Shown in pieces: positions 8,014 through 27,531 of a DNA stretch of 50,114 nucleotides. Source of the stretch: Stappia albiluteola (GTDB lineage: Bacteria > Pseudomonadota > Alphaproteobacteria > Rhizobiales > Stappiaceae); contig NZ_JACFXV010000030.1 in NCBI RefSeq assembly GCF_014050225.1, forward strand, positions 1-50,114, in the 5' to 3' direction. Positions within the stretch are counted from its first letter, which is position 1, and every line of letters begins with the position of its first letter. Position numbers and translations under genes: made by a program. The notes beneath the pieces were generated by a model. It did no database searches. It was not told where the DNA came from and was given only the letters and a program-made list of their open reading frames with translations.

Positions 8014-8022
8014 GACAGCCCC

Positions 8023-8946: not shown

Positions 8947-9012
8947 CTCGTCCGTCGCAATACGGACGCAAAACCGACGGCCCGCTTCAATTGCCCGCCG
9001 TCTCAAAGTTTC

Positions 9013-9858
9013 TCAGGCCGGCGCGGCGGCAGTCTCGCCGATCGCCTGCCTCACCCTGCTTTCCAGGGCTTGATCGCCAAAGGCGATGAAATCGGGGTTC
9101 GCGAAATCCGTATCCGTCGCCTGACCGCGTTTGTCATAGGCAAGAGGAGTGCCGTCCGTCCTGATCACGGCACCTCCCGCTGCAGCAAGTACGGCCTGAC
9201 CCGCGGCCGTATCCCATTCCATCGTCCGCCCGAAACGCGGATAGACGTCCGCCTCACCACAGGCAAGCAGACAGAATTTCAGCGACGAGCCGACCGAAAC
9301 GCGATCCGTCACGCCAAGACGATCGAGAAAGGCTTCGGTCTCGGGAGAATTGTGCGAACGGCTCGCGACAGCGACCAGCGCTTCCGTCGGCGCCCGGCGC
9401 ACCTGAATGCGGGTTTCGGCATTCATTTCGGCATTGTCGGCCTCGAGGCGGTACGCTCCCGCTGCAAGCGACCCGGCAAAAGCTTCGCCACGCGCGGGTG
9501 CAAGCACGACGCCGGCGACCGGAACGCCGTTTTCGATCAGCGCGATATTGACTGTGTAGTCGGGCCGTCCGGAAATGAACTCCCTGGTTCCGTCAAGCGG
9601 ATCGACAAGGAAGAAACGCCCGGCGGACGGCGGAACATTCCCGGCACTCACCGCCTCTTCCGCGACTACCGGGACGTCCGGAAAGAATTGCTTCAGTTGC
9701 GCCAGGATGAGGTCTTCGGCCTGCTGGTCGGCCAGCGTCACCGGAGAATCGTCGGCCTTGGACTGGACTGAAGTTCCGTTCCGGTAATGCGAAAGCGTAA
9801 CGCGCCCGGCAGCCCAGGCGATCGCATTCAGGATCCGGATCGTATTCAAGTCGGTCAA
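9013..9858 (-). CDS. cysQ: 3'(2'),5'-bisphosphate nucleotidase (CysQ)
   Basis: About 281 residues of the inositol-monophosphatase fold: DDSPVTLADQQAED, VVAEEAVSAG, FLVDPLDGTREFISG (metal-binding DPLDGT), and EWDTAAGQAVLAAAGG. It hydrolyses PAP, the by-product of PAPS use, to AMP and recycles PAPS pools. The frame is open to 10014, but AGGAGGT (9870-9864) sits 5-6 bases before a TTG at 9858, giving MTDLNTIRILNAIAWAAG, the expected N-terminus. A GTG at 9864 overlaps the ribosome site and is excluded. The ribosome site is fully paired in a predicted hairpin (9863-9892). First gene of the sulfate-activation operon. Confidence 0.9.
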   Translation of the reverse strand: MTDLNTIRILNAIAWAAGRVTLSHYRNGTSVQSKADDSPVTLADQQAEDLILAQLKQFFPDVPVVAEEAVSAGNVPPSAGRFFLVDPLDGTREFISGRPDYTVNIALIENGVPVAGVVLAPARGEAFAGSLAAGAYRLEADNAEMNAETRIQVRRAPTEALVAVASRSHNSPETEAFLDRLGVTDRVSVGSSLKFCLLACGEADVYPRFGRTMEWDTAAGQAVLAAAGGAVIRTDGTPLAYDKRGQATDTDFANPDFIAFGDQALESRVRQAIGETAAAPA

Positions 9859-9862
9859 GGGC

Positions 9863-9892
9863 ACCTCCTGCGCGGGAACTGAGGCAGGAGGT
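9863..9892 (-). promoter_or_regulatory. cysQ: Anti-Shine-Dalgarno hairpin in the cysQ leader
   Basis: In the cysQ transcript, ACCTCCTGC (9892-9884) pairs perfectly over 9 bases with GCAGGAGGT (9871-9863) across a 12-base loop. The right arm contains the whole AGGAGGT ribosome site, five to six bases before the TTG start. It matches no riboswitch class that I recognise, and no larger aptamer is evident upstream. Confidence 0.6.
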
Positions 9893-10501
9893 AAAGATAC
9901 CGCCCCGGCAATGCAAGGAAACTGAACCCCAATTGCGGTCGCAACATGAGCATCTTTTTCCAAATGCACCCGGACTCGGGCGAATACAGGATCGGGACAG
10001 ACGCGAAAATCCATTCACAAACCGTGACACCATAATCGCGAGCAAAGGTGCCGACAATGAAAAGACAATCGATTTCAATGCGGTCCGCGAAACCCAAATG
10101 TTACGATGACCTCGCTCGAAGCCGGCCGACGCCATTTCGTATTTGCAGTGTCCTGCCAGTATGGCTAAGACGCTAATATGGCAAGCCGCCAAAATAAAAG
10201 GCACAGGACGACGGTCTGGTTTGCCCGATCCGGGCGCGCGGGGGAGGCCTTGAAACCTATGCGGATAACAGAAAGTGAAGAAAGGGCTCTTCCAATTTCC
10301 GCAAGGTTCACTCCATCCAGATCTCGCCACCCGACGAAATCGGGTGGGTCGTCGATGAAAATCTCGCTCCGAAAGAGATTGTGGTATTGCATGTAAGTAC
10401 CTGATCCGCGATACCCGTTTGCCGCATTCAGCTGACGAGCTGGGCAATCAGGAATTGCAGTCGAATTCAGCGAGCAAAACGAAATTTGATGGAATAGGGT
10501 A
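9893..10501. other. Divergent regulatory spacer between cysQ and the PKS gene
   Basis: 609 bases without a supported gene. It must hold the promoters of both divergent operons. A hairpin lies at 10327-10347 (CCACCCGA / TCGGGTGG around CGAAA) about 155 bases before the PKS start, with no T-run. An AT-leaning part (10170-10200) is a candidate promoter area. A minus-strand frame from 10392 contains FRSEIFIDDPPDFVGW, which looks protein-like, but it then degrades, so it is not called. Confidence 0.5.
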
Positions 10502-13500
10502 ATGGCGACCAGGCACTGTGACATTTCTATTTCCGGCTATGCTTCCAGGGTGCCTGGGGCAAATTCCGCCGAACAGTTCTGGTCAAACCTTACCAACGAA
10601 GTCTGCAGCGTCACCTCAATCACCGAGGACCGTTTCCCGCTTTCCAGATACGGCCATCCCGACCGCAACGTCAGTGGCAAGAGCTACACGTGGGCGGCAG
10701 GGGTAATCGATAACGTGTGGAGCTTCGATCCCACATTCTTCGGCATTTCCCCGCGCGAAGCCGTGCAGATGGATCCGCAGCAGCGCATCCTGCTCGAGGT
10801 CGTCTGGGAAGCGCTCGAGCATGCCGGCATCCGGCCGTCCGAACTTGCCGGCACTGATGCGGGCGTGTTCGTCGGCGCTTCGTCGCTCGATTATCACCAC
10901 CGCTTCGTCTTCGATCCGTCGGCCCTGGACATGCAGATGATGACCGGCAATACGCTGTCGATCATCTCAAACCGCATTTCCTACATCTACGATCTTCGCG
11001 GTCCGAGCTTCACCGTCGACACTGCCTGTTCGTCTTCGCTCGTTGCCCTGCACGAGGCGATCAATGCCGTTGAGAGCGGCCAGGTGGAAACCGCGATCGT
11101 CGCCGGCGTCAACATGCTGTTGAGTCCGCTGTCCTATCTCGGCTTCTCGCGCGCCTCGATGCTTTCGAAACAAGGGCTTTGCCGCGCCTTCGACGCCGAC
11201 GGCGACGGCTATGTGCGTTCCGAGGGTGCGGTTGCCTTCGTGCTTCGCCGCAGCGACATCGCCCGCGCGAAGGGAGACACGATCCACGCCCGCATCCTGG
11301 CATCCGGCCTCAACGCGGACGGGCGGACGGTCGGCATGTCGCTACCCTCGTCCGATGCCCAGGGACAACTTCTGCGCGACATCTACGAAGGGCTTGGGAT
11401 CGATCCTGCCGACCTGGCTTTCGTCGAGGCGCACGGTACCGGCACGCGGGTTGGCGATCCGGCGGAAGCAGGCGCTCTCGGCTCGATCGTGGCCCGCAGG
11501 CGCACCGCACCGCTGCCGATCGGCTCTGTGAAGACCAATGTCGGCCATCTCGAATCCGCCTCCGGCGCTGTGGGCCTTCTGAAGGCGTTGCTGTCGCTGA
11601 AAAAGGATTTCTTCCCGCGCTCGCTCCACTTCGATACGCCGAACCCGGATATCGACTTCGGCGACCTCAATCTCAAGGTCGCCGGCGAGGCGGTGAAGCT
11701 CGAAAAAAGTGACAGGCCGCGGCTTGCCGGCATCAATTCCTTCGGTTTCGGTGGCACCAACGCCCATGTCGTGATTGCTGACGGAGAGACGACGACCGCG
11801 CCCGACAGCGATGCGCCGGCCAACGCTCCTCTCGTCCTTTCCGCCAGGAGCGCGGATTCCCTCGTCCGCCTTGCCGGCGCCTATCGCCAGCGCCTTTCGG
11901 AAGCGAAAGGCGATGAGCCTGCCGCCGCCGTTCTTTCCGCCGCGGCGCACAGGCGCGACTGGCTGGATCACCGGCTTGTCGTATTGGGCGAAACCCCGGA
12001 GCAGAAGGCAGCCGCCCTTGGTGCCTATCTTGCCAATGAGCCGCACGAAGACATCATCACTGGGCGTGCACCGGCAGGCGGCGGCAAACTCGCCTTCCTG
12101 TTTTCCGGCAACGGATCGCAATGGGCCGGCATGGGCCGACAGGCGTTCGAGCAGGACGAAGCCTTCCGCAAGGCATTCGGCGAGGTCGACGCGGCGTTCA
12201 GCGCCATCTCCGGCTGGTCGCTCGAGGAAATGCTGTTTTCTCCCTCTCTTGAGCAGGAAATCGAGAGGGCCGAAATCAGCCAGCCCCTGCTCTTCGGCGT
12301 TCAGGCCGCGCTGACGCAGTCGCTGCGGGAAAAGGGTATCGCCCCGCAGGCGGTTGCGGGCCACAGCGTTGGCGAGGTCGCCGCCGCCTGGGCGGCCGAC
12401 GCGCTGACGCTCACCCAGGCCGTGCAGGTGATTTACGCCCGCTCGCGCTACCAGGAGCAGGTGCGTGGCCAGGGTACCATGGCCGCCCTGCTGCTTTCAG
12501 AGGAAGAGAGCCAAGCAGCGATACAGGAATCCGGTCTCGACGGCATCGAGATTGCGGCGGTGAACAGCCGCCGCAGTGTCACGATTTCCGGCCCGACCGC
12601 CAGCATCGACGCCTTTGCGAAGTTTGCACGCTCCAAACGCTGGGCGCTGCGCAAGCTCGGCATTGCCTACCCCTTCCATTCGCAGCTCATCGACCCGATC
12701 GAGTTGCCGCTGAAGCAGGCTCTCAGCGACCTGACGCCGGCAGCACCGGCGATTCCCTTCGTGTCGTCGGTTGATCCGGAGCAGGATGCGATCATCGCCG
12801 ACGGGACATATTGGTGGCGCAATGTTCGCCAACCGGTGCGGTTCGCCGACGCGGTGGCGAAGCTCATCGAGCTTGGCTCTACCGTTTTCGTGGAAATCGG
12901 GCCGCGGCCGGTGCTCACCACCTATGCATCCGACATGGTGCGGGAGAATTCCGGCAGCGGTCTTGTGCTGGCCAGCCTCGACAACAGCAAATCGCACCAG
13001 CGTTCCGACAATCCGGTAGCCGCGATTGCCGCGACCATCGTCGCGAATGGCGGCGCCGTCGATATCGCGCGCTTTGTCGGGTCCGTCGGCAGGCCGCTCC
13101 CGGACCTGCCGGCCTATCCATGGCAGATGCAGGACTTCCGTCCTGAAGAAACGGACGAAAATACGCAGGCAATGTTCGCCCGCTCATGGCCGCTGCTTGG
13201 AAACCGCCTGAGCGCGAGCAGCAGCGAATGGTTCAATCATTGTGATGCGAAGCTCAATCCCTTCCTCGGCGACCATCGGGTTGAGGATTCCGTCGTCTTC
13301 CCGGCGGCCGGCTTTGCGGAGATGGCGCTTCGCGCCGTATCGGAATGGACGGATTGTGATGCCGTCGAACTGCGGGATGTCGAAATCCTGCGTCCGCTCG
13401 TGCTGGATGGCTCCGATATCCAGGAAACGATGGTCCGGGTATCGGCTGACGACAGGGTAGTGGAGATCTTCAGCCGCCCAAGGCTGAAAGGCGCCGATTG

Positions 13501-16500
13501 GTCTCTCAATGTGCGCGGCCACTTCATCACGCCCTCGAAGATCAGGCAGCGCGAGGCATTGGATGCCGGCGCGTCGGCCTCCTCCGTGACGATTGATGCC
13601 GAGGAACTCTACCGCCTGACCCGCGAACACGGCCTGAACTACGGCCCGGCATTCCGCCGCGCGAAATCGGTGGAGCGCATCGACGAGCGCACCGCGCGCG
13701 TGGCGCTCGAACCCCGTCACGCCGATATCGGAAGCACGCGCTTTTCGCTTTGTCCGACGCTGCTCGATTCCGGCTTCCATGGCCTGTTCGCCCTGCTCGG
13801 CGACAAATCCGGCGATAACGGCAAGCGCAGCTTCCTGCCCGTACGCATCGGACGGCTGCAACTCGCTGCGACCGGAAAAGACCCCGCATTCGTCGACATC
13901 CGCATCACCAAGGCCTCACCGCGTTCGGTGGAAGCGAGCTTTGACCTTCTGGATGCCGACGGTGCTCTCGTCGCGCGCCTTACCGGCGCAAGGTTCAAGG
14001 CTGTTCAGCTTTCCGTCCCGCTGCAACGCGACAGCCTCGTCTACCGCACATATGCGCGCCTCCTTCCCGACCGCCAGGCGCCATCGGCCGTCGATGCTGT
14101 CCTTGGCAACGACGTCGCGAGCCTCGCCCTGAAGAGCGGTGTGATTTCCGCCGACGAAGCGGAGCCCGAGGATGCCGCGCTCCTGATCGAGGCCCTTGCC
14201 CGGTCGGTTGCTCATCAGACAATCGCAACGCTCGCCGATGCGGGCGAGTTCGATCCGGACAGGGCGATGTCCACCGGCGGCCTGCACGAATCCGCAAGGC
14301 CACTCGTCGGTGCGCTGCTGAACTGGCTATTGGACGCGGATTTCGTTGAGGAGACGGAGTCGGGCTGGAAAGTAACCGATCCGAATGAACAGCCCTCGCC
14401 GGCGGCGATCCTGTCGGCGGTCATGGAGCAGGCACCGGAACATATCGCCGTTGCCTCGCTGCTCGCACGCCTTGCGGAAGAACTGCCCGGGATCTTGCGC
14501 ACCGGCCTTTCCGAAAGCGCATCGTCCCTGTTCTCCTCAAGCCTGCTCGAAGCCACGCTGATTGCCTCGCCCGAAGCGCGCGCCTCGGATAATGGGGTGG
14601 AAGCCTTCGCGACGACCCTGATCGATGGGTGGCCGGAAGGGAAAACCCTTTCCATTCTCCTTGTCGGCGCGACCCGGCAAAACCTTGCGCGAGCCCTGCA
14701 GGCAAAGCTCGATCCTCACTATGCGGCTCTCGCCGTCACCGACACGCACGAGGCAACCCTTCAGCGGGCAAAGTCCCAGCAGCAGAAAGACGACGCCATC
14801 CGCTTCGTCGATTTCGACGAGGAAGCGCTGGAGGCAGAAGGTCCGTTCGACATGGTACTGTCTTCCTCCGGCCTTTCGGATTGCTCGCAAGAGGATCTGG
14901 CCCTGCTTCGAGGACAATTACGCACCGGCGGCCTGTTGATGGCAATCGAGCCGCTACCCTCGCTGGCGAGCGATCTGGTGCGCGGCGTAGGACGGGATTG
15001 GTGGACGAAGGGCGCGGGTGGCGAATTCGCCCTCTCCTGCCTGAAGTTCGAGGACGAATGGCAGAGCGAACTGGAGCGTTCGGGCTTCGACAACTGCACC
15101 ACCTTTCCTTTCGCTTCATCGACGGTCGAAGCGAGCGTATTGACTGCGCGAGCAGGCGGGCGGGAAACGCAGGCGGAAAATGTTGCCGCGGCACAACCGG
15201 CGATCTCGCCGTCGCTGCTCGTTATCGCCGACGACCTGCTCCAGACCCGGCGTCACCTCGAACACCTGCTGCCTGCCCTTGAGGCCGAAGGTATCGGTGC
15301 GATCCGGATTTCCTTTGGGGAACAAACGAGGCTCGATACCGCCGGGAACGGAACGATCGACCCGATCGGCGACAGGGACAGGCTCAAGGCGCTGATCGGC
15401 CAATGCGCGTCCGGGATCATTCACCTCGACGGCGCCTACAATGAAGATGGCAACGACCAGGATGCGGTTGATACGCGGCTTTGGTCGCTGACAAGACTGC
15501 TGAAAGCGATCGGCGGCGACACTGCCCGTTTGTGGGTCGTAGCACCCGGCGCCGCGCAGGATTTCGCGCGCGACGACGTCGAAGGCTCGCCCCGCCAGGC
15601 GGCCGCCTGGGCCTATGGCCGCGTGGCCATGAACGAATACAGCGACGTCGATCTGCGCCTTGTCGACGTGTCGCCGGACCTCGCCCCGAAGGATGCCGCG
15701 TTGCGTCTCGCTGCGGAAATCGCCGCTCCCGGCGAAGAGCGCGAGGTGGTGATAGCTTCGGATGGCAACCGCTACGGCCTCCGTATCCAGCGCGGCGCGC
15801 TGCTGTCCGAAACGCCCGAAAACCTCACGGGCGATGTCGCCTTGCGGCTCGACATCCGTCGACAGGGTTCGCTCGACGAGTTGCGTTGGCAACCGGTCGT
15901 CCGCCCCGCCCCGGAGGGAAGCGAGGTGGAAATCGCGGTCGAGGCGAGCGGCCTTAATTTCCGCGACGTGATGTGGGCGCTCGGCCTGCTGCCGGAAGAG
16001 GCCCTCGAAGATGGCTTCGCCGGCCCTACGCTCGGCATGGAATGCGCGGGCCGTGTGGTGCGTACCGGAGGGGCAGTCTCCAGGTTCAAGGTTGGGGACC
16101 GGGTTATGACTTTCGCGCCGGCCTGCCTTGCAAGCCACGTGACGGTCGACGAAAGCGCCTGCGCCGCCGTACCGGACGCGATGCCCTCCGCGGCGGCTGC
16201 CACGGTGCCCGTCACCTTCCTGACCGCCTATTACGCCCTCGTCCACCTCGCCCATATCGAGCGCGGCGAAACGGTGCTTATCCACGGCGGCGCCGGCGGC
16301 ATCGGCCTTGCCGCCCTTCAGATCGCCAAGTGGCGCGGCGCCGTGGTTATCGCCACGGCCGGTTCGCCGGAAAAGCGGGCGATGCTCCGTCTGGCGGGCG
16401 CCGATCAAGTGCTTGATTCCAGAAGCCTCGATTTCGTCGAGGAAGTGATGGACCTGACCGGCGGCGAGGGTGTCGACGCGGTATTGAACTCGCTCTTTGG

Positions 16501-18097
16501 CGAGGCGATGCAAAGAAGCATCGACGTGCTGAAGCCGTTCGGCCGCTTCCTGGAACTCGGCAAGCGCGATTTCTACGCGAACACGCATATCGGCCTCAGG
16601 CCGTTCCGCCAGAACCTGTCCTATTTCGGCATCGACGCGGATCAATTGCTTACGCGTCAAAAGCCGCTGGCCGAGCAGCTCTTCCGCGAAATCGTCGGGC
16701 ACTTCGAGAAGGGCACCTTCAAAGCCCTGCCCCATCGACGTTTTGCGGCAGCGGACGTCGTGCAGGCTTTCCGGCTGATGCAGCAGGCGGGACACATCGG
16801 CAAGATCGTGCTTGAAGCACCGGCCGTTTCCGCGACCGCTGAACAACCGCGCAATCTCAACCTCGATAGCGAGGCGACCTATCTCATAGCCGGCGGCTTC
16901 GGGGGCTTCGGCGCCGAATTGCTCTCCCGGTTGGCCGATAGGGGCGCGCGCACCTTGCTGGTCCTCTCGCGGCGCGGCGGGGAGAGCGACGATGCGAAAG
17001 CGGTGATCGAGCGCCTTGGCGCCCGCGGCGTGCGCGTCGAGGCGCGTGCCTGCGACATTGCTGACGAAATCCAGTTGCGCCGCGTCCTCAAGGAAGCACG
17101 CAAGACGCTGCCGCCGATAGTGGGCGTTTTCCACACCGCGATGGTGCTGAACGACACGTTGATCGCCAATCTGGACGAGGACGGCATTTCACGTGTGCTG
17201 CTGCCGAAGGTGCGCGGTGCCGAACTGTTGGACAGGCTGACCGCGGAAGACCCGATCGAGCATTTCGTACTCTATTCGTCGGCCACGACGCTCGTGGGCA
17301 ATCCGGGCCAGGCGAATTATGTCGCCGCCAACGGCTATCTGGAGGCACTTGCCCGTCGTCGCCGGACAAACGGCAAGCCGGGCCTGGCAATTGCCTGGGG
17401 TGCGATCTCGGATGCCGGTTATCTGGCGCGCAACACGGATGTGAACGATATCCTGTCGAAGCGCCTGGGCGGCCAGGGCCTTAGCGCCCGTGATGCCCTG
17501 GACGGTCTCGTCTCCCTTCTCGAGGCCGCCCCCGCGGGCGTCGAGAACGCTGCCATCGGCTATGCGCGCATCGACTGGCAGGGCGCGAGTCGCGACCTGA
17601 AGATCGTCGGCACGCCGCTCGCGGCCGGGCTTGGCGGAGGCAACGGCGAAGCCACGGAAGTTTCGGGCGACGCCCTCGACCTTGCCGCCATGCTGAAAGG
17701 GCTGGACCGGACGCGCGCGACCAAGACCGTCGCCGACATCCTCGCACGAGAGATCGGCAAGATACTGCGCATTTCCAGCGAGGAAATCGACCCGCAGCGT
17801 CCGCTTGCCGATGTCGGCATGGATTCGCTGATGGCTCTGGAACTGCGCATGAACGCCGAACGCCTGCTTGGTGTGGACATTCCGCTGATGGCGCTGGCGA
17901 ATGGCGCATCGTTGAACGACATGGCCGGCCGCATTGCTGCCCGCGTCTTGGGTGAAGCTTCCGCCTCGACGATCTCTGCCCCGGTTCAGACGCTCGCTGC
18001 GCAGCATCTGGACATGGACGGCATCGAGGAATCCGATCTCGCGAACATGGCCCGCGCTGCGGAGGCCAAGGCCAACGAGATGCGGTCGATCGTTTAG
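10502..18097 (+). CDS. rkpA: RkpA-like highly reducing type I polyketide/fatty-acid synthase
   Basis: 2531 residues in one module. Ketosynthase 1-430 (DTACSSSL, Cys176; His311 in EAHGTGT; His349 in NVGHLE). Acyltransferase about 520-820 (GHSVGE, Ser622; YPFH). Dehydratase about 895-1170 (His925, Asp1089). A region at about 1180-1550 resembles a methyltransferase that has lost its glycine-rich SAM loop. Ketoreductase structural half about 1550-1775. Enoylreductase about 1780-2115 (HGGAGGIGLAALQIA). Ketoreductase 2120-2300 (GGFGGFG, Tyr2273). ACP about 2400-2475 (DVGMDSLMAL, Ser2442). All catalytic domains for a saturated chain are present and there is no thioesterase, so another protein must release the product. 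The next gene is the obvious candidate. The layout matches S. meliloti RkpA, needed for capsular (K-antigen) polysaccharide. The symbol is by resemblance and synteny. Confidence 0.88.
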   Translation: MATRHCDISISGYASRVPGANSAEQFWSNLTNEVCSVTSITEDRFPLSRYGHPDRNVSGKSYTWAAGVIDNVWSFDPTFFGISPREAVQMDPQQRILLEVVWEALEHAGIRPSELAGTDAGVFVGASSLDYHHRFVFDPSALDMQMMTGNTLSIISNRISYIYDLRGPSFTVDTACSSSLVALHEAINAVESGQVETAIVAGVNMLLSPLSYLGFSRASMLSKQGLCRAFDADGDGYVRSEGAVAFVLRRSDIARAKGDTIHARILASGLNADGRTVGMSLPSSDAQGQLLRDIYEGLGIDPADLAFVEAHGTGTRVGDPAEAGALGSIVARRRTAPLPIGSVKTNVGHLESASGAVGLLKALLSLKKDFFPRSLHFDTPNPDIDFGDLNLKVAGEAVKLEKSDRPRLAGINSFGFGGTNAHVVIADGETTTAPDSDAPANAPLVLSARSADSLVRLAGAYRQRLSEAKGDEPAAAVLSAAAHRRDWLDHRLVVLGETPEQKAAALGAYLANEPHEDIITGRAPAGGGKLAFLFSGNGSQWAGMGRQAFEQDEAFRKAFGEVDAAFSAISGWSLEEMLFSPSLEQEIERAEISQPLLFGVQAALTQSLREKGIAPQAVAGHSVGEVAAAWAADALTLTQAVQVIYARSRYQEQVRGQGTMAALLLSEEESQAAIQESGLDGIEIAAVNSRRSVTISGPTASIDAFAKFARSKRWALRKLGIAYPFHSQLIDPIELPLKQALSDLTPAAPAIPFVSSVDPEQDAIIADGTYWWRNVRQPVRFADAVAKLIELGSTVFVEIGPRPVLTTYASDMVRENSGSGLVLASLDNSKSHQRSDNPVAAIAATIVANGGAVDIARFVGSVGRPLPDLPAYPWQMQDFRPEETDENTQAMFARSWPLLGNRLSASSSEWFNHCDAKLNPFLGDHRVEDSVVFPAAGFAEMALRAVSEWTDCDAVELRDVEILRPLVLDGSDIQETMVRVSADDRVVEIFSRPRLKGADWSLNVRGHFITPSKIRQREALDAGASASSVTIDAEELYRLTREHGLNYGPAFRRAKSVERIDERTARVALEPRHADIGSTRFSLCPTLLDSGFHGLFALLGDKSGDNGKRSFLPVRIGRLQLAATGKDPAFVDIRITKASPRSVEASFDLLDADGALVARLTGARFKAVQLSVPLQRDSLVYRTYARLLPDRQAPSAVDAVLGNDVASLALKSGVISADEAEPEDAALLIEALARSVAHQTIATLADAGEFDPDRAMSTGGLHESARPLVGALLNWLLDADFVEETESGWKVTDPNEQPSPAAILSAVMEQAPEHIAVASLLARLAEELPGILRTGLSESASSLFSSSLLEATLIASPEARASDNGVEAFATTLIDGWPEGKTLSILLVGATRQNLARALQAKLDPHYAALAVTDTHEATLQRAKSQQQKDDAIRFVDFDEEALEAEGPFDMVLSSSGLSDCSQEDLALLRGQLRTGGLLMAIEPLPSLASDLVRGVGRDWWTKGAGGEFALSCLKFEDEWQSELERSGFDNCTTFPFASSTVEASVLTARAGGRETQAENVAAAQPAISPSLLVIADDLLQTRRHLEHLLPALEAEGIGAIRISFGEQTRLDTAGNGTIDPIGDRDRLKALIGQCASGIIHLDGAYNEDGNDQDAVDTRLWSLTRLLKAIGGDTARLWVVAPGAAQDFARDDVEGSPRQAAAWAYGRVAMNEYSDVDLRLVDVSPDLAPKDAALRLAAEIAAPGEEREVVIASDGNRYGLRIQRGALLSETPENLTGDVALRLDIRRQGSLDELRWQPVVRPAPEGSEVEIAVEASGLNFRDVMWALGLLPEEALEDGFAGPTLGMECAGRVVRTGGAVSRFKVGDRVMTFAPACLASHVTVDESACAAVPDAMPSAAAATVPVTFLTAYYALVHLAHIERGETVLIHGGAGGIGLAALQIAKWRGAVVIATAGSPEKRAMLRLAGADQVLDSRSLDFVEEVMDLTGGEGVDAVLNSLFGEAMQRSIDVLKPFGRFLELGKRDFYANTHIGLRPFRQNLSYFGIDADQLLTRQKPLAEQLFREIVGHFEKGTFKALPHRRFAAADVVQAFRLMQQAGHIGKIVLEAPAVSATAEQPRNLNLDSEATYLIAGGFGGFGAELLSRLADRGARTLLVLSRRGGESDDAKAVIERLGARGVRVEARACDIADEIQLRRVLKEARKTLPPIVGVFHTAMVLNDTLIANLDEDGISRVLLPKVRGAELLDRLTAEDPIEHFVLYSSATTLVGNPGQANYVAANGYLEALARRRRTNGKPGLAIAWGAISDAGYLARNTDVNDILSKRLGGQGLSARDALDGLVSLLEAAPAGVENAAIGYARIDWQGASRDLKIVGTPLAAGLGGGNGEATEVSGDALDLAAMLKGLDRTRATKTVADILAREIGKILRISSEEIDPQRPLADVGMDSLMALELRMNAERLLGVDIPLMALANGASLNDMAGRIAARVLGEASASTISAPVQTLAAQHLDMDGIEESDLANMARAAEAKANEMRSIV

Positions 18098-18127
18098 GCA
18101 TGGATGGATCACGCGGGAGCAGGCGGA

Positions 18128-19504
18128 ATGGACGATAGTACGCGCGCTAGGTTGTTGGGCGAAATGCGTGGCAGCCGGCGGCGATCGCGGGATCGTTCCT
18201 CAAATGGCGCCGCCCACGAGGATTCGCCGGCGCCGGCGAAGCCCCGGACCGCGGGCAAGGTCAGCGCGTTCGACTTCTCTTCCCTGCCGGAAGTCCACCA
18301 ATTCGCCGTGCAACGCGCGGCGGCGGAAGTGATGGGGATCGAAAACCCGTTCTTTCGCGCCCATGACGCGCTGGCGTCCGCCACGACGACGATCGGAGGG
18401 CGCGACTACGACAATTACGCCTCCTACAACTATCTCGGACTGAACGGCCATCCGGCTGTCAACAAAGCCGCGAAAGACGCTATCGAGCGTTATGGCACAA
18501 GCGTCTCGGCAAGCCGGCTTGTCGCCGGCCAGCGCCCGTTCCACGCAGAGGTGGAATCCGCGCTGGCTGCTGTTCATGGCGTCGAGGACGCGATCGTGAT
18601 GGTCAGCGGGCATGCGACCAACGTCACGACGATCGGCCACCTGATGAAGCCGTCCGATCTGGTCCTGACCGACAGCCTCGTTCACAACTCGATTGCGGAA
18701 GGCTGCAAGCTGTCGGGCGCGACACGGCTGAACTTTCCGCACAACGACCTGGAGGCCTTGGAAAGGCTGCTCGAGGAGCACCGCCACAAACACGATCGCG
18801 TCCTGATCATCGTTGAAGGACTTTATTCGATGGACGGCGATTATCCGGATCTTCCGGCGCTGATCCGCCTGAAGCAGTCTTTCGATGCATGGCTGCTCGT
18901 CGACGAGGCGCATTCCATCGGTGTGATGGGCAATACCGGCCACGGCATTGCCGAGCATTTCGGCATTGACCCTCGTTGCGTCGAGATGTGGATGGGTACG
19001 CTATCGAAGACCTTTTCGGCCTGCGGCGGTTACATTGCCGGGTCGAAAGCCCTTTGCGACTATCTCCGTCTCAGCGCTCCCGGTTTCGTCTTCTCCGTCG
19101 GGCTGTCGCCGGCGCTTGCCGCAGCGACCCTTGCTTCCTGCAAGCTGCTCAACGACGAGCCCGAACGCGTGGAGCGCCTGCATCGCAACGGCCGCCATTT
19201 CCTGGAGAAGGCCCGGGAAGCCGGTCTCGATACGGGACCGAGCGCGGGGCTTGCGATCGTGCCGGTGATGGTCGGCAGTTCCATCGGTGCGGTTTCGCTC
19301 TCCAATCGACTCCTGGAGCGCGGCATCAACGCCCTGCCCATCATTTTTCCCGCCGTCGCCGAACGCTCCGCGCGGCTGCGGTTCTTCGTCACGAGCGAGC
19401 ACTCGCTGGAGCAGATCGAACGGACGGTAGAGATCGTTGCCGAGGAATTGGCGGCTGTCAAAACGTCCGCTTCGCCATTCGCGAGCATTTCCGCCAGGTC
19501 CTGA
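18128..19504 (+). CDS. rkpG: RkpG-like alpha-oxoamine synthase (PLP-dependent acyltransferase)
   Basis: About 458 residues. Fold type I aminotransferase of the group holding 8-amino-7-oxononanoate synthase, KBL and serine palmitoyltransferase. Landmarks: NYASYNYLGLNGHPAV, GTSVSASRLVAGQ, LVDEAHSIGVMG (PLP-ring Asp and His), and the PLP lysine in GTLSKTFSACGG (Lys294 from this start). Such enzymes condense an acyl thioester with an amino acid and release CO2, giving an amino-ketone. About 55 extra N-terminal residues, rich in Arg/Ser/Pro, precede the fold. The start at 18128 has GGAG 8 bases upstream; an ATG at 18104 is possible. It lies 30 bases after the PKS and is probably co-transcribed with it. 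It could off-load the PKS chain (inference). Confidence 0.85.
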   Translation: MDDSTRARLLGEMRGSRRRSRDRSSNGAAHEDSPAPAKPRTAGKVSAFDFSSLPEVHQFAVQRAAAEVMGIENPFFRAHDALASATTTIGGRDYDNYASYNYLGLNGHPAVNKAAKDAIERYGTSVSASRLVAGQRPFHAEVESALAAVHGVEDAIVMVSGHATNVTTIGHLMKPSDLVLTDSLVHNSIAEGCKLSGATRLNFPHNDLEALERLLEEHRHKHDRVLIIVEGLYSMDGDYPDLPALIRLKQSFDAWLLVDEAHSIGVMGNTGHGIAEHFGIDPRCVEMWMGTLSKTFSACGGYIAGSKALCDYLRLSAPGFVFSVGLSPALAAATLASCKLLNDEPERVERLHRNGRHFLEKAREAGLDTGPSAGLAIVPVMVGSSIGAVSLSNRLLERGINALPIIFPAVAERSARLRFFVTSEHSLEQIERTVEIVAEELAAVKTSASPFASISARS

Positions 19505-19520
19505 AATCGTGATCGGCCGG

Positions 19521-21173
19521 TCACAGGCCGAGCTTGCGCCCGAGCCAAGAGAGTTCGCGCAGCGCACGTGCCTTCAGGCCATGCAGGCGGTTGCCCCGCA
19601 ACCGGGCAAGCTGCCCGATCAGGAATTCGGGAGAGCAGGGCTTCAGCGTGACGGGGTCTATGCAGCGGATGTAGTCGACGAAGGCGATATAGACGAGTTC
19701 GTCGATCGTTCGCCTGGCATTGCGGTGAGCTGACAAGCCGATGTCGTCGGTCAAGCCCCAGCCGGCATAGAACGGCATGCCGTAGACGGTGACCGGTTTC
19801 GACCGCATGAGAGCCTCGAAACCGGAAAGCGACGAGATCGTTTCCACCCTGTCGCAGACGTCCAGCAGTTCCAGGATATCAATATCGGTCACGACCTGAT
19901 CGGCGAGACCGCGCAGGTCCGCATCCTCGACCTTTCCCCGCCGCAATCCCGCCTGCACGTCGGGATGCGGCTTGAAGAGAATATGGGCCCCGGGATTTCG
20001 CGCACGCACGAGCCGCAACAGATCGAGGTTCGCATTCTCGGTTCGCTCGCAATCTATGAGCGGGGAGATGGACTTGCGGATCCCGGCGTCGTCGCCCACC
20101 TGCCCGGGAACCAGGAGGATCTCCCGCTCCTGCGGCAGTTCCAGCGAATGTCCGCGCGATCCGACATTGTATTTGGTCACGCGGCCGGCAACGATCATCT
20201 CTCGAAGCAGGGCGCCGCGAGCGATCTCTCCTTCCCCCAGTGACGCATTGTTCAGGCGCTCCTCCATGCGGCTCGGGCGCGTCGCGTCAAAATAGATGCC
20301 CAGGTCGTCGACGGCGAAGGAGGCGCCCCGCACCAATCCCGCGCCCAGCCCCACCGAACGAAGAAAACCGTCTTCGATGCGAAGGAAGGGGACCTGCCTC
20401 GCCGCTGCGATCGCCTCCGCCGACCGGCTGGAGGCGCCAGCCCAGCACAGCACGCGCCCGCCGCGGCCGGCCGCCCGGTCGATTGCGTCCTCGACGCTGG
20501 CGCAGAAGGTCACGGGGTGATCGGAACTGCCGAACGCGGCCTCGATTGCTGTGCGGTTCCAGGCTTTCACACCGACACAAAACGACGGCCTGACGTTTTC
20601 CCGCCGCTGTCGGGCCGCCGCTTCCAGCGCTTGCAGCGCATCTGCCGGCGGCAGGACTTCGCGTCGCCTGTAGGGGCTCGGGAACCGGATTGCATTCGTC
20701 CCCACGGCCTCGAGCAAGAATGCGGGACCGGCCGATGTTCTATGCGGATCACCGTCCGCATCACGCAATCCGGGATCGATCGAACGGATCAATGCCGTCA
20801 TTTGATCGCGGTCCGGGACGCCCTCCTCCCCCGCGGCCATGAAGGCAATGGCTTCGCGCAACGCTTCGGCCGGCACCGCCGTCCGCATCAATATTTCTCG
20901 CGGGATTTCGATAAAGAGAAAGCTTGCCGGATCGACGAAGGCCTTGTCGACCTTGCCCGAGAGCGGGCCCGGCGCGGCAAGGAAAAGGCGCCGCTTTCCC
21001 GCAAGGCAAGCTTCCTTCGCCTGTTTGAACGGCTGCGGCGCCAGGGTCACGGCCAGCGCACGCCGTTGCGACATTCCCTTCAAGCCGGAGCAACGAGTAC
21101 TGGCGGCCAACCTTTTGATCAGTCGGCGATAAGGCTTGAGCGCCGGATCGGCGATCCTTACCCGAAGGGTCAT
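19521..21173 (-). CDS. KpsC/LpsZ-like capsule protein, single Kdo-transferase-type module
   Basis: 550 residues. From about 200 onward the KpsC signature is clear: FLRIEDGFLRSVGLG, DDLGIYFDATRPSRMEE, LLVPGQVGDD, ILFKPHPDVQAG, and VYGMPFYAGWGLTDD (about 464). E. coli KpsC (about 675 residues) carries two such modules that alternate Kdo linkages on a lysophosphatidylglycerol primer. Here only one is recognisable, and the first 200 residues are divergent. Likely inner-membrane-associated and cytoplasmic. The start overlaps the stop of the upstream KpsS-like gene by 4 bases, showing translational coupling. It converges on the rkpG-like gene with a 16-base gap and no visible terminator. Confidence 0.85.
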   Translation of the reverse strand: MTLRVRIADPALKPYRRLIKRLAASTRCSGLKGMSQRRALAVTLAPQPFKQAKEACLAGKRRLFLAAPGPLSGKVDKAFVDPASFLFIEIPREILMRTAVPAEALREAIAFMAAGEEGVPDRDQMTALIRSIDPGLRDADGDPHRTSAGPAFLLEAVGTNAIRFPSPYRRREVLPPADALQALEAAARQRRENVRPSFCVGVKAWNRTAIEAAFGSSDHPVTFCASVEDAIDRAAGRGGRVLCWAGASSRSAEAIAAARQVPFLRIEDGFLRSVGLGAGLVRGASFAVDDLGIYFDATRPSRMEERLNNASLGEGEIARGALLREMIVAGRVTKYNVGSRGHSLELPQEREILLVPGQVGDDAGIRKSISPLIDCERTENANLDLLRLVRARNPGAHILFKPHPDVQAGLRRGKVEDADLRGLADQVVTDIDILELLDVCDRVETISSLSGFEALMRSKPVTVYGMPFYAGWGLTDDIGLSAHRNARRTIDELVYIAFVDYIRCIDPVTLKPCSPEFLIGQLARLRGNRLHGLKARALRELSWLGRKLGL

Positions 21174-22456
21174 AGCGGCACTCCGATCGCACGTGCCCGA
21201 GCCAGCCGCGGCGGCGGGTCCACATAGCCGCCCGGCTCGTTGAGATCCCCGCGAAGCATACGGGAACTCATGGCCTCGACCGCGGCCTCCAGACCATCGG
21301 CGTTATGGATGGAGCCCCGCGCCAGCAAGGTTGCGGCCACCGCCTTGCGGAAATCGAGAAGCAGAGCGGCATCCGGTTTCTTTGATGCCTTCCAGAAGTC
21401 GTCGAGGCTACCTTGATGGGTCAGTCCCGGCATGTCGTAGAGCGCCGGAGAAAGCGTCTTGACCGGACAATCCTCCATCAGCGCATCCAGGCCTGCAGTG
21501 GAGTTGACGGTGACCAGCCCCTTCGCTGTCCGCGCCAGGTCTTTCAGCGAGCCTCCATCCACAAACACGACCCGTCCGGCTATCCTTTGCTTCAGCGCCA
21601 TCTCGTCCAACCGCCGCCGCCAACGGCCGAGACCGTTGTCGTTGGGATGCGACTTCACGACCAGAAGCGCCTCGTTCGGCGCGTGGGCAGCGAAGGAACG
21701 CAGCACCACCTCGAGCGCGGCCGCCATCGTGTTGAAAGGCGAATGCGCAGTCAGCTGGTAATCGCCTTCAATCTGCAACGGCACCAGAAAAAACGGCGCG
21801 TCGGCGGAGAGCAAACGCTGCTGGGCCTTAGCGGCACCCCTTGCGCGGGCGGATCTCGTCGCAAGCCGCAGCGCCCATGCGCCATAGTCGAGGAGAGGAT
21901 GCAGCGGCGTATGGCGCCTGTAGAACGGATAGGCCGGCCGGCCAAGCAGGCTCGCCAGATGATAGGAAACGTCTTGCCACGCTTCCAGCACGAAACTTCC
22001 GGGGTAGCGCGGGGAAAGGTCGATTTCGCCGACGTCGGACGCAATGCGCCGGATGGCTGCCGGATCGTCGGGAAAATGGCTGAGGACCGAGTAACCGCCC
22101 CGTTCGATCGTCATCCAGCCGGGACGCAGGTATCCGAGTTCGGTCGCAATGACACGCACGCCGCGCATGGCCGCCGCTTCGATGGCGACGCGGTGATAGA
22201 ACCGGCGGTCGCCATGAACGACGAGATCCGTAATCCGGAGGCGATCGAGGAGGTCGCCGACGTTGCGCGCCCAGTCCTCAGGGCGACCGCGATAGGATCT
22301 TGTGCCGCGCCCATGCCAATGGATCCAATCGCCCAGGCAGAAATTGACGCGCGCGACCTCGTGCCCTTCTTCGGCAAGGCGCCGGCCCAGCCTCCGGTAG
22401 AGCGGCGACAGCGGCCCCTGCAGAAACAGAAAGCGGCGCGAGGTTTCGGGGGGCAC
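21170..22456 (-). CDS. KpsS-like capsule polysaccharide protein, paralogue 2
   Basis: About 428 residues. KpsS-type motifs: RRFLFLQGPLSPLYRRLG, VNFCLGDWIHW, YRGRPEDWARN, ATELGYLRPGWMTIERGG, SHFPDDPAAI, VVKSHPNDNG, VTVNSTAGLDALM. KpsS in E. coli adds the first beta-Kdo to the lipid primer of group 2 capsules. The frame is open to 22654, but GGGAG lies about 7 bases before a GTG at 22456. That start leaves eight residues before FLFLQGP, matching the seven in the upstream paralogue. An ATG at 22501 lacks a ribosome site. It begins 16 bases after the stop of paralogue 1 and overlaps the KpsC-like gene by 4 bases. Confidence 0.85.
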   Translation of the reverse strand: MPPETSRRFLFLQGPLSPLYRRLGRRLAEEGHEVARVNFCLGDWIHWHGRGTRSYRGRPEDWARNVGDLLDRLRITDLVVHGDRRFYHRVAIEAAAMRGVRVIATELGYLRPGWMTIERGGYSVLSHFPDDPAAIRRIASDVGEIDLSPRYPGSFVLEAWQDVSYHLASLLGRPAYPFYRRHTPLHPLLDYGAWALRLATRSARARGAAKAQQRLLSADAPFFLVPLQIEGDYQLTAHSPFNTMAAALEVVLRSFAAHAPNEALLVVKSHPNDNGLGRWRRRLDEMALKQRIAGRVVFVDGGSLKDLARTAKGLVTVNSTAGLDALMEDCPVKTLSPALYDMPGLTHQGSLDDFWKASKKPDAALLLDFRKAVAATLLARGSIHNADGLEAAVEAMSSRMLRGDLNEPGGYVDPPPRLARARAIGVPL

Positions 22457-22472
22457 GGCTCTCTCCCGCCAG

Positions 22473-23828
22473 CTATCGGGAAAACCGGTCGCCGGCGGCA
22501 TGATACCAGCGATTCGTGCGCTGGCCGCTTGCAAGGATCTCGTCGAAGTCCACCGGCAGGCCATGCGCCCTGGCCTTGGCGACGCGCGGCTGCAAGCCTC
22601 TGAGGACCTGTGGGCAATTGACCCGATCGCCGATGATCCGGGACACGATTTCACGGGCTGCGACCCGCTGCCCTTCGCGAACGTAGAAGTTGCCCTTGAC
22701 CTGGATCCCGGTCGCCATGAGCCGCTCCAGTGCGATTACCAGATCCGGATCGGGCTTGGGAGGCGCGCGCCAGAATTCGTCCAGCGGACGCTGCGAGGCG
22801 ATGCCCTCGATATCGTAGACCGCGATTCCCAGGACCTTTGTCGGGCATCCCACCCGCGCCGCATGCAGCGCCGTCGTGCTGTTGACCGTCAGCATGCCGG
22901 CGGCGTTTCTCAGCAGTGTGTCGAGATTTCCGCCGTCGATCACATAGACCCGGCGCTTCAGACCGTATTTGCGGGCAAGTGCCCTGAGCCGGCTGCGCCA
23001 GGGCTCGATCCCCTGATCGAGCGGATGGACCTTGAAGACCAGCCGCGCCTGGCGGGGCGCGTGGCGGGCAAATGAGGTCATCGCCACTTCCGCCGCTTCC
23101 AGCAGATGATCGAATGGCGCGTTGTAACGCAGCTGGTAGTCGCTCTGCAGCTGAAGCGGGAAGACGAAATAGGGCAAGCCCGCATCCACCACATCGTCGA
23201 TCAGATAGTTCGCGTGCCTGTTTCGATGTCGCGACAGGAAAAGCCGCGGGATCATCCAGAGGTATTCGGGGATCGGGTGGTAGTATTTGTCCTGCGAGAA
23301 AAACGGAAACAGGAACCAGAAAAACACATTGATAAGATTGAAGACGACTTCGTAAAACGCTTCGAGATGGAAGGGGTGGTTGTAGAGAGGTCTGCGGTCG
23401 ATCGGCGGGAGGTTCCGCGCCGCCTCGATAATGGAAGCCGGATCTTCCGGAAAGTGGGAGAGCGCGGACATTCCACCCCGTTCCAGGGTGATCCAGTCGG
23501 GTCTGAGATACCCGAACTCGCAGGCGATGGCCTGCACATTCATCCGCTGCGACAGGTCCCTCGCAGCCGCGTGGTACGGCAGGCGATCCTGATAATAGAG
23601 TATATCCGTAACCGCATTTTCCCGAACGAAGCGCTCCAGGAATACGGGCCAGTCCTTCAGGCGGCCGCGATATTGCGTGCACCGTGCGTCGTGCCAGAAG
23701 AACCAGTCGGCCGGGCCGAAATTGATGCGCAGGGCGCGATGCCCCTGCGCTTCGACTTCGTCGGCGACCGTGCGAAAGAAGTAGCCGGGTGGTCCCTGCA
23801 GGAAGAGGACAGTCCGGAAATCCGACAC
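22473..23828 (-). CDS. KpsS-like capsule polysaccharide protein, paralogue 1
   Basis: 451 residues beginning MSDFRTVLFLQGPPGYFF. It shares with the next gene the blocks INFGPADWFFWHD, YRGRLKDWPVF, CEFGYLRPDWITLERGG, SHFPEDPASI, VFKVHPLDQG, and MLTVNSTTALHAA. This indicates a tandem duplication followed by divergence. An aromatic stretch (VVFNLINVFFWFLFPFF, about residues 160-178) absent from paralogue 2 could give membrane contact. Proposed role: Kdo or other sugar transfer to the lipid primer of a capsule. It starts 67 bases after the export lipoprotein gene. Confidence 0.87.
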   Translation of the reverse strand: MSDFRTVLFLQGPPGYFFRTVADEVEAQGHRALRINFGPADWFFWHDARCTQYRGRLKDWPVFLERFVRENAVTDILYYQDRLPYHAAARDLSQRMNVQAIACEFGYLRPDWITLERGGMSALSHFPEDPASIIEAARNLPPIDRRPLYNHPFHLEAFYEVVFNLINVFFWFLFPFFSQDKYYHPIPEYLWMIPRLFLSRHRNRHANYLIDDVVDAGLPYFVFPLQLQSDYQLRYNAPFDHLLEAAEVAMTSFARHAPRQARLVFKVHPLDQGIEPWRSRLRALARKYGLKRRVYVIDGGNLDTLLRNAAGMLTVNSTTALHAARVGCPTKVLGIAVYDIEGIASQRPLDEFWRAPPKPDPDLVIALERLMATGIQVKGNFYVREGQRVAAREIVSRIIGDRVNCPQVLRGLQPRVAKARAHGLPVDFDEILASGQRTNRWYHAAGDRFSR

Positions 23829-23895
23829 CGCTGCTTGTCTTTCTTCGCCTGGTCCCTCGTCAGGTCGGCGGAATTGCCGAATCCGAAGAACCGTC

Positions 23896-25029
23896 CTAGT
23901 TTGAAATTGCGTTGACCGTGTTCACATTCGACAGCAATGGCCCGATCAGCTGCAGGAACTTGCCGAATTCGGCCGTCGGGTGGTTCGCCACGTAGATGAC
24001 GTCCTTGTCCCGCATCTCCATCGCCCGCGCGGTGAAGAAGGCTTGCGGCTCGCGGAAATTCAGCCTGTAGACCACCGGAAAGGTTTCGCCCGAGACACTG
24101 CTCGCCAGATCCGGTCGCAGCAGCCGCACGAGCGCCGCATCTTCGTAGCGGAATAGGAAGACGCCGCCGGCATCGGCGAAGAAATCCTTGAGCCCGCCGA
24201 CCTGGGCAAGCGCTTCGGCCAGCGTCACCGTCTGCGTCTTGAAGGGCACCAGAGTCGTTTGCCCAACGGCACCGAAGGCGGAATAGGTGCGCGGCTTGTG
24301 CGACAGGAGAATGTTGTCGCCGGAAACCAGCGGAATATTGTTTTCGGGATAATCGATGAGATCCTCGAACCGGGCCGTACCCGAACGATGGCCGCGCTTC
24401 AGCGTAACCACCGTTTCATAGACCGCTTCCCGCGCGCCGCCCGCCTGCGCAACGAGCTCCAGGAGTCGCGAGCCGCGAATCGACAGCGGGTACTGCCCGG
24501 GCTTCGCCACATCGCCGACCACGACAACACTGTTGCTGGCATTGTTCTGGACGGTAACGGAGACCTGAGGTTCGATCGCCTTGCCCTTGAGCTTGTCCTC
24601 GATGGCGGTCCTTAGGCCTTCGACGGTCAGGCCGTCCGCGTGTATCCGGCCCGCATAGGGGATGAATATGAACCCGCTCTGATCGATGACCGTCGGCACC
24701 TGCACCGATTTGCCGGTTGCCGTCGAGAACAACCCGTCCGGCGCCGCTTCCCAGATGCCGATGACCAGGCCGTCGCCGACGCCCAGCACGCTGTTCCTGC
24801 CCCGACTGCCGATCTCGCCGAATCTCTGTGCGAACGTGACCGGCCGGTAGCTTTGGATGGAACGCGCAGAATTCCTGTCCAGCGTCACGGTGGCATAGTT
24901 CGCCTCCGTGGTGCCCGACTCAATCTCGTCGGCAGTAATGGATATGGCGGACGGCCCCTGCCCGGGCAGGGCGGCGCAACCAGCCAGCAATAGTGCCAAT
25001 AACGGAGCAAATATCGTTCGGTTCGGCAA
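23896..25029 (-). CDS. Capsule/exopolysaccharide export lipoprotein (Wza/KpsD family)
   Basis: 377 residues. The N-terminus LLALLLAGCAALPG is a lipoprotein signal with the lipidated Cys at 18. The polysaccharide-export domain includes LGVGDGLVIGIWEA and PYAGRIHADGLTVEGLR, followed by SLBB-type beta-grasp repeats (SVVVVGDVAKPGQYPL; TTLVPFKTQTVTLAEALAQVGG). Proteins of this family form the outer-membrane channel for capsular polysaccharide. It is the first gene of a four-gene minus-strand operon with two KpsS-like genes and the KpsC-like gene. The inner-membrane ABC transporter (KpsM/KpsT) expected for such a system is not in the window. Confidence 0.9.
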   Translation of the reverse strand: MPNRTIFAPLLALLLAGCAALPGQGPSAISITADEIESGTTEANYATVTLDRNSARSIQSYRPVTFAQRFGEIGSRGRNSVLGVGDGLVIGIWEAAPDGLFSTATGKSVQVPTVIDQSGFIFIPYAGRIHADGLTVEGLRTAIEDKLKGKAIEPQVSVTVQNNASNSVVVVGDVAKPGQYPLSIRGSRLLELVAQAGGAREAVYETVVTLKRGHRSGTARFEDLIDYPENNIPLVSGDNILLSHKPRTYSAFGAVGQTTLVPFKTQTVTLAEALAQVGGLKDFFADAGGVFLFRYEDAALVRLLRPDLASSVSGETFPVVYRLNFREPQAFFTARAMEMRDKDVIYVANHPTAEFGKFLQLIGPLLSNVNTVNAISN

Positions 25030-27495: not shown

Positions 27496-27531
27496 TCGCC
27501 AACCCTCGTTCCAGAAACACGAACGGCATCT

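Follow-up and report, generated by a model that had tools for sequence, protein, structure and literature searches.

The 50,114-nucleotide stretch of Stappia albiluteola DNA analysed here (the window) makes up the whole of C24, one of the 70 contigs into which a 4.36-Mb genome is assembled. Two of its forward-strand genes, encoding a polyketide synthase (PKS) and a pyridoxal phosphate (PLP)-dependent alpha-oxoamine synthase (AOS), converge on four reverse-strand genes that encode a KpsC-like transferase of 3-deoxy-D-manno-oct-2-ulosonic acid (Kdo), two KpsS paralogues and an outer-membrane polysaccharide export (OPX) lipoprotein. The two groups run towards each other to stop codons separated by 16 bp (Table 1). 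This layout was described in a first-pass annotation, which had proposed that the PKS and AOS make a sphingoid-like lipid and that the Kps enzymes glycosylate it. The convergent arrangement is borne out, with the refinements that KpsC has one module and that KpsS1 probably starts near 22501, not 22654. The locus may represent the lipid-primer and linker part of an ATP-binding cassette (ABC) transporter-dependent, group 2-type capsule system.

Table 1. Genes of the PKS/AOS-Kps locus and the basis of their assignment
Feature	Position	Strand	Basis
RkpA/WcbR-type monomodular (iterative) type I PKS/fatty acid synthase (FAS)	10502..18097	+	Pfam domains, motifs; 2531 aa
RkpG-type PLP alpha-oxoamine synthase (AOS)	18128..19504	+	458 aa; Aminotran_1_2 170 bits; RkpG/Sga AOS clade member
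KpsC-like beta-Kdo transferase, single C-terminal (beta-2,7) type module	19521..21173	-	Structure-profile scores, Foldseek, motifs
KpsS paralogue 1 (KpsS1)	21170..22501 (ORF to 22654)	-	Capsule_synth 249 bits; QXXXD + HP motifs; tree
KpsS paralogue 2 (KpsS2)	22473..23828	-	Capsule_synth 231 bits; QXXXD + HP motifs; tree
OPX (Wza/KpsD/VexA-like) outer-membrane export lipoprotein	23896..25029	-	Poly_export + SLBB; LAGC lipobox from translation

Pfam gives the PKS the domain order ketosynthase (KS), acyltransferase (AT), dehydratase (DH), enoylreductase (ER), ketoreductase (KR) and acyl carrier protein (ACP), and the motifs of KS, AT, ER, KR and ACP are intact. The DH motif pattern was not matched, and the stretch in question reads by eye as HxxxDxxxxP. 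No thioesterase or terminal thioester reductase was found in the PKS among the 15 Pfam families listed, in agreement with its original description as fully reducing and without a thioesterase. An alternative ATG at 18104 is possible for the AOS, but a GGGAG sits 8 bases 5′ of 18128, and the 30-bp gap first reported between the two genes therefore holds.

The KpsC of the window scores 179 bits against 6mgd, compared to 141 bits against 6mgb and 125–128 bits against the E. coli KpsC-N entries, and 6mgd also ranks first in Foldseek for its structure model (mean predicted local distance difference test score 78). According to PMC10148158, the source used to identify the modules in 6MGC and 6MGD, 6mgd is the beta-2,7 module of T. 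dismutans. The QXXXD and HP catalytic motifs were examined in KpsC, KpsS1 and KpsS2; KpsC carries both, together with EDGFL, while its N-terminal region is poorly conserved and has no clear relative. The KpsC and KpsS1 genes overlap by 4 bp. A second KpsC module lies on contig C37 and scores higher against E. coli KpsC-N (222 bits) than against 6mgd (147 bits). It adjoins a KpsE-like gene, which reaches 230 bits with the BexC/CtrB/KpsE family and misses the cut-off of 437.5, and ABC transporter genes whose ABC_tran and ABC2_membrane domains pass the Pfam cut-offs. The OPX protein likewise reaches 117 bits with PRK15078, short of the cut-off of 333. Thus, the genome is predicted to have every enzyme needed for an ordinary beta-Kdo linker, divided between two contigs. 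The KpsC of Roseibium aggregatum (L053:12235-13947) is probably inactive, since the QXXXD and EDGF motifs retained by its Stappiaceae relatives are missing from it.

The AOS is not readily named by curated models. Its best NCBIfam match, bioF, gives 350 bits and does not reach the cut-off of 426, and none of the curated serine palmitoyltransferase (SPT) models reaches its cut-off (300 of 640, 271 of 500 and 203 of 670 bits). Since every curated model falls below its cut-off and a tree separates the enzyme from these families, its assignment as BioF or as a canonical SPT was rejected. The tree contains 84 sequences, includes 40 of the 80 named loci introduced below, and omits 5 rows of a first tree. 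Within it, the AOS of the window belongs to a clade of 63 rows (support 100/97), namely 56 RkpG-type, 4 Sga-like and 3 C61-type, which excludes all 21 other rows, including the SPT, BioF, 2-amino-3-ketobutyrate CoA ligase (KBL) and 5-aminolevulinate synthase (ALAS) references. The AOS of the window groups there with those of Stappiaceae (Roseibium, Stappia, Hongsoonwoonella). A solved sphA chain matches the AOS profile. The clade cannot be equated with all PKS-coupled AOS, as it excludes a PKS-associated Streptomyces AOS (L140) and includes the three C61-type rows, near which no PKS lies. The Sga-like rows are PKS-AOS pairs from genomes of the order of genome G320, and three of them form a sister group with 43–45% identity to the AOS of the window. 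No KpsC/KpsS match was found within 20 kb of these three loci, which are likely candidates for the SgaAB type discussed below.

The association of the AOS with the PKS was followed in two samples, 289 genomes of the window's class and the best 80 named AOS loci from a scan; 15 of the 80 are Methylobacteriaceae and at least one genome is in both samples (G186, that of L084), so that cases are not independent. In the class, 12 AOS copies of at least 435 bits occur in 11 genomes, and the next score is 359 bits. A PKS adjoins all 12, which means that the pairing is beyond chance. Among the 80 named loci, a PKS lies directly upstream of the AOS in 71, of which 70 were found by script and one, L063, has an AOS reading frame that begins 154 bp after the end of the PKS frame. 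The aligned parts of the 70 pairs are at most 335 bp apart, except in L097 (Burkholderia lata), where they are separated by 1207 bp and a 305-aa reading frame. Also counted in the 71 is L117, in which PKS and AOS are fused into one 2635-aa KS-AT-DH-ER-KR-ACP-AOS protein. Seven other loci encode ACP-AOS fusions, four of which also include an acyl-AMP ligase, and these fusions are a predicted PKS-free route for loading the same kind of AOS. They come from Planctomycetota, a Desulfobulbaceae metagenome-assembled genome (MAG) and Corallococcus (L092, L124, L131, L132, L095, L116, L129). The remaining two loci are L109, cut at a contig end, and L114, with an AOS alone. The adjacency, the one PKS-AOS fusion and the seven ACP-AOS fusions lend support to the early suggestion that the AOS off-loads the PKS acyl chain, and make it very probable that the enzyme acts on the ACP-bound chain.

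A precedent for the product has been described. In Pseudomonas fluorescens MYb115, SgaA (a PKS) and SgaB (an AOS) are reported to be required for C24, C26 and C28 sphinganines, and the purified SgaB enzyme, assayed with acyl-CoA as a surrogate donor, accepts L-serine almost to the exclusion of alanine and glycine (PMC12134224, 2025). The same work describes lipids of +154 Da as "most likely" phosphoglycerol sphingolipids, and SgaAB-homologous clusters as commonest in Burkholderia. The view, held when the locus was first annotated, that such a pathway was untested has thus been overtaken for the PKS/AOS pair. The precedent does not extend to the capsule, and the main text of PMC12134224 contains no "capsul", "rkp" or "wcb". 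Together with the AOS clade, this analogy supports the sphingoid-type product proposed at the outset, which we regard as likely. A related possibility is that the lipid does anchor the capsule but is made with alanine or glycine, or retains its ketone, and so would be a 1-deoxysphingoid or an amino-ketone without a C1 hydroxyl. The best NCBIfam match to bioF, the SPT models below cut-off, and the lack of RkpI and A3-type RkpH matches in the window's genome would fit such a lipid; the near-exclusive use of serine by PfSgaB, and the presence in relatives of RkpI, which would require a hydroxyl to modify, make it unlikely.

The distribution of capsule genes connects this lipid pathway with polysaccharide. 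The co-occurrence of PKS/AOS with KpsC/KpsS in other genomes, proposed earlier as a check, was found in both samples. Capsule_synth genes at E<1e-40 are present in 7 of 11 AOS-positive class genomes compared to 10 of 278 others (Fisher p 2e-7), and at E<=1e-3 in 7 of 11 compared to 38 of 278 (p 3e-4), although Fisher values overstate independence here because the genomes are related. Among the best 80 named genomes, 57 have a match at E<=1e-3 (42/50 and 15/30 in two batches), and at E<1e-30 the proportion is 56/71 in the PKS-linked genomes versus 0/7 in the ACP-fused ones, with one weak match.

The KpsS proteins themselves divide accordingly to a large extent. The 75 sequences of their tree are all KpsS-type matches of the 50-genome batch, but not those of the second named batch (30), plus a single KpsS from each AOS-negative class genome that has one. 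They fall into groups of 65 and 10 rows on either side of one branch (95/96). On the larger side are 64 rows from AOS-bearing genomes or plasmids (two from the same genome) and one from genome G256; on the smaller side are 9 of the 10 KpsS of AOS-negative genomes and a third KpsS of G325, whose two others are of the AOS-linked kind. KpsS is reported to add the first Kdo to the lipid (PMC10148158), and the split is therefore the pattern expected from a different acceptor, though shared ancestry may explain it too.

These patterns bear on a rival explanation, in which the PKS and AOS make a free sphingolipid for the membrane or for host interaction, KpsS and KpsC use ordinary (lyso)phosphatidylglycerol, and the genes adjoin through the clustering of envelope genes. 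The products of SgaAB are described as free sphinganines (PMC12134224), and the title of Fraysse et al. 2005 reports that the poly-Kdo capsule of S. meliloti 1021 carries a phospholipidic anchor. Furthermore, 15 of the 71 PKS-linked named genomes and 4 of the 11 AOS-positive class genomes have no Capsule_synth match, and no KpsC/KpsS match was found in 6 of 7 20-kb stretches from the order of G320 (7 of its 17 PKS-AOS genomes sampled). Because such Kps-negative PKS-AOS genomes exist, some of them draft MAGs, the lipid would have other uses too. Against this explanation stand the strong genome-wide co-occurrence of AOS and Kps genes and the division of KpsS by AOS presence, and rkp-1 mutants are reported to be deficient in capsular polysaccharide (KPS) (PMC4881576). 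KpsE/M/T-like genes, by cluster labels, also occur in the PKS-AOS locus of 5 of the 8 Kps-negative genomes of the 50-genome batch (L069, L083, L089, L121, L122). Profiles agree for Nitrosomonas europaea (L083), with KpsE at 274 and KpsM at 122 bits, both under the NCBIfam cut-offs, and ABC domains that pass those of Pfam; a KpsC/KpsS-family search of this genome gave no match. Even in loci for which no Kdo linker enzyme was identified, the lipid seems to accompany polysaccharide export of the ABC type. A free sphingolipid is thus a possible but disfavoured account of the locus. In N. europaea, PKS, AOS, OPX, KpsM, KpsT and KpsE-like genes lie in one locus, and RkpH- and RkpI-like genes lie on another contig (G310:C36:71672-73910).

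Relatives of the locus often carry two further genes. In the Rhizobium loci L080 and L111, the order is PKS, AOS, a short-chain dehydrogenase/reductase (SDR), a PF00884 protein and KpsS, in agreement with the rkp-1 order, rkpA-G-H-I-J. The name RkpI was assigned by position in loci of this type. The protein belongs to the sulfatase superfamily, which includes the lipoteichoic acid (LTA) synthases; of three relatives, two match the LtaS model, at 40 and 19 bits, and the relative in Paraburkholderia dioscoreae is annotated as "LTA synthase family". Of the 289 class genomes, 6 match the RkpI profile, with 4 of them among the 11 that are AOS-positive and 2 among the remaining 278 (Fisher p 2e-5), and in a further set of 51 genomes it matches 28. 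By number of KpsS, counted by hand as full-length matches with long multi-match frames (KpsC) left out, RkpI occurs in none of the 14 of these genomes that have at least two KpsS, in 25 of the 29 that have a single one, and in 3 of the 8 that have none. This pattern is suggestive only, and its treatment as 14 independent cases was rejected, as the KpsS tree requires just 3 changes for the "two" label.

The RkpH profile is less informative. It reaches at least 275 bits in 38 of the 51 genomes but also E<=1e-70 in 100 of the 289 class genomes, and misses the divergent SDRs of the Rhizobium loci (132 and 131 bits). RkpH was therefore rejected as a diagnostic partner, its presence or absence being weak evidence. 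When solved structures were searched, the SDRs could not be recognised as ketosphinganine reductases. In the window's genome, 13 generic SDRs match A3 RkpH at E<=1e-25; no SDR close to the L053 type was found, and the divergent Rhizobium type (L080) was not searched.

From its family, RkpI could transfer a phosphoglycerol group from phosphatidylglycerol onto the sphingoid base, giving a mimic of lysophosphatidylglycerol. Such a step would yield phosphoglycerol sphingolipids of the MYb115 type, and would also fit the "phospholipidic anchor" of S. meliloti. LTA synthases work outside the membrane, and topology is a weakness of this model, since KpsS acts inside. Because many relatives carry RkpI, the original wording that the Kps enzymes use this lipid "instead of" lysophosphatidylglycerol may be too simple, as the acceptor could be a sphingoid version of it.

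Taken together, these components suggest the following pathway. On the ACP of the PKS, a long and largely saturated acyl chain would be assembled. The AOS would then condense this chain with an amino acid, in all likelihood L-serine, in a decarboxylative reaction that releases a 3-ketosphinganine-type lipid, and a reductase would convert this lipid into a sphingoid base. The sphingoid lipid, or a product derived from it, would be the acceptor on which KpsS-type enzymes begin the beta-Kdo linker, the split KpsC would lengthen the linker through the beta-2,7-type module of the window and the N-terminal (beta-2,4) type module of C37, and the OPX lipoprotein would export the completed chain. In many relatives, RkpI may first attach a phosphoglycerol head to form a sphingoid lysophosphatidylglycerol mimic, and the window's lineage has two KpsS and no RkpI match. 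The gene content, module types, motifs, co-occurrence and fusions in relatives are observed in sequence, and the making of sphinganines by a PKS/AOS pair is established by experiment in P. fluorescens; the chain length, amino acid, reduction step and primer use in the window's organism are inferred. That the PKS/AOS lipid serves as the capsule primer is, in our judgement, somewhat favoured.

Several observations weigh against this use of the lipid. The RkpI profile finds no relative in the window's genome, nor in its Stappiaceae relatives L053–L059 and L061, and no SDR close to A3-type RkpH was found there (best 127 bits; none at 1e-70). The AOS-negative G256 has a KpsS inside the AOS-linked branch, though it carries an RkpI-type protein. 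To these are added the Kps-negative genomes, the position of the Streptomyces AOS, the relatedness of the genomes behind the Fisher values, the acyl-CoA surrogates with which PfSgaB activity was measured (PMC12134224), and the anchor reported by Fraysse et al. for S. meliloti 1021, a strain in which rkp-1 is said to be necessary for poly-Kdo secretion.

The acyl-amino lipid might also decorate a polysaccharide, lipopolysaccharide or other glycolipid and not act as a primer. On plasmid pII of Paraburkholderia dioscoreae (L141:13911-16906), the PKS and AOS genes are separated by one for an LpxC-family deacetylase, and the AOS gene is followed by one with a GNAT acetyltransferase annotation, for which Pfam gave no match; such neighbours suggest N-acyl chemistry on a glycolipid. 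At the window locus, neither an LpxC-family nor a GNAT gene was annotated or seen, and the neighbours are linker and export proteins, which makes decoration quite improbable there.

The locus shares features with four known systems. Like Sinorhizobium rkp-1 (rkpA-G-H-I-J) and the Burkholderia wcb cluster, it has an RkpA/WcbR-type PKS adjoining an AOS and a KpsS, but it lacks rkpH and rkpI and combines two KpsS, a KpsC C-module and OPX. With SgaAB of P. fluorescens MYb115 it shares the iterative PKS and the AOS, and candidate SgaAB relatives from the order of G320 fall within its AOS clade, whereas no capsule is linked in the main text of PMC12134224 and the three candidate loci are without Kps matches in 20 kb. 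The E. coli group 2 capsule, with a KpsS/KpsC linker on (lyso)phosphatidylglycerol, has counterparts in KpsS, the KpsC-C and KpsC-N type modules, the KpsE-like protein, the ABC transporter and OPX; it differs from the window's genome in that here the KpsC modules are split on two contigs, KpsS is duplicated and belongs to the AOS-linked branch, and PKS and AOS are present. The fourth likeness is to fungi, in which fumonisin and sphingofungin chains are off-loaded by an AOS. These products of highly reducing fungal PKS are named in PMC12134224 as PKS-derived and sphinganine-like, and are free secondary metabolites with no link to a polysaccharide.

A special lipid carrier or anchor for K-antigen from rkp-1 is an old idea (PMC3557214, PMC4881576), and its identity as a PKS-made sphingolipid was not found in the literature searched; in the papers found, PKS-made sphingolipids and capsule lipid anchors are two unlinked lines of research. 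According to PMC10148158, nearly all capsule systems of the ABC-transporter type have a conserved lipid terminus, and many proteobacteria would be exceptions if they used a sphingoid anchor. Such an anchor would also give the rkpA/rkpG and wcbR/wcbT pairs a function, offer a reading of RkpI, and add many bacteria to the recognised range of sphingolipid producers. In its most general form, which we put forward as a tentative and rather doubtful conjecture, many Gram-negative capsules would be built on a PKS-made sphingoid lipid, which RkpI would convert into a phosphoglycerol sphingolipid that mimics lysophosphatidylglycerol and is primed with Kdo by its own branch of KpsS, and in lineages like that of the window a second KpsS would replace RkpI and glycosylate the base directly.

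The surroundings of the locus are shared by close relatives. The flanks in the window read, without a family search, as cysNC-cysD-cysQ (6112-10014) and tamA-tamB (25474-31878), and cysD, tamA and tamB relatives occupy the same place in L055 and L056, where the order is cysD, PKS, AOS, KpsC, KpsS, KpsS, OPX, tamA and tamB. The genome has a second AOS on contig C61 (G000:C61:10000-29999, L037), which was considered as a housekeeping SPT and is placed inside the same AOS clade on a long branch. Its neighbours are a phosphoenolpyruvate (PEP) mutase-nucleotidyltransferase fusion, a thiamine pyrophosphate (TPP) enzyme, an inositol-phosphate synthase, a cytidine triphosphate (CTP) transferase, LptF/G and a glycosyltransferase, so that it sits among phosphonate-type genes in a candidate locus for a phosphonate- or inositol-containing sphingolipid. 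Several of the C61-locus genes are also present in G022 (L050), and G140 (L051) has the PEP mutase relative.

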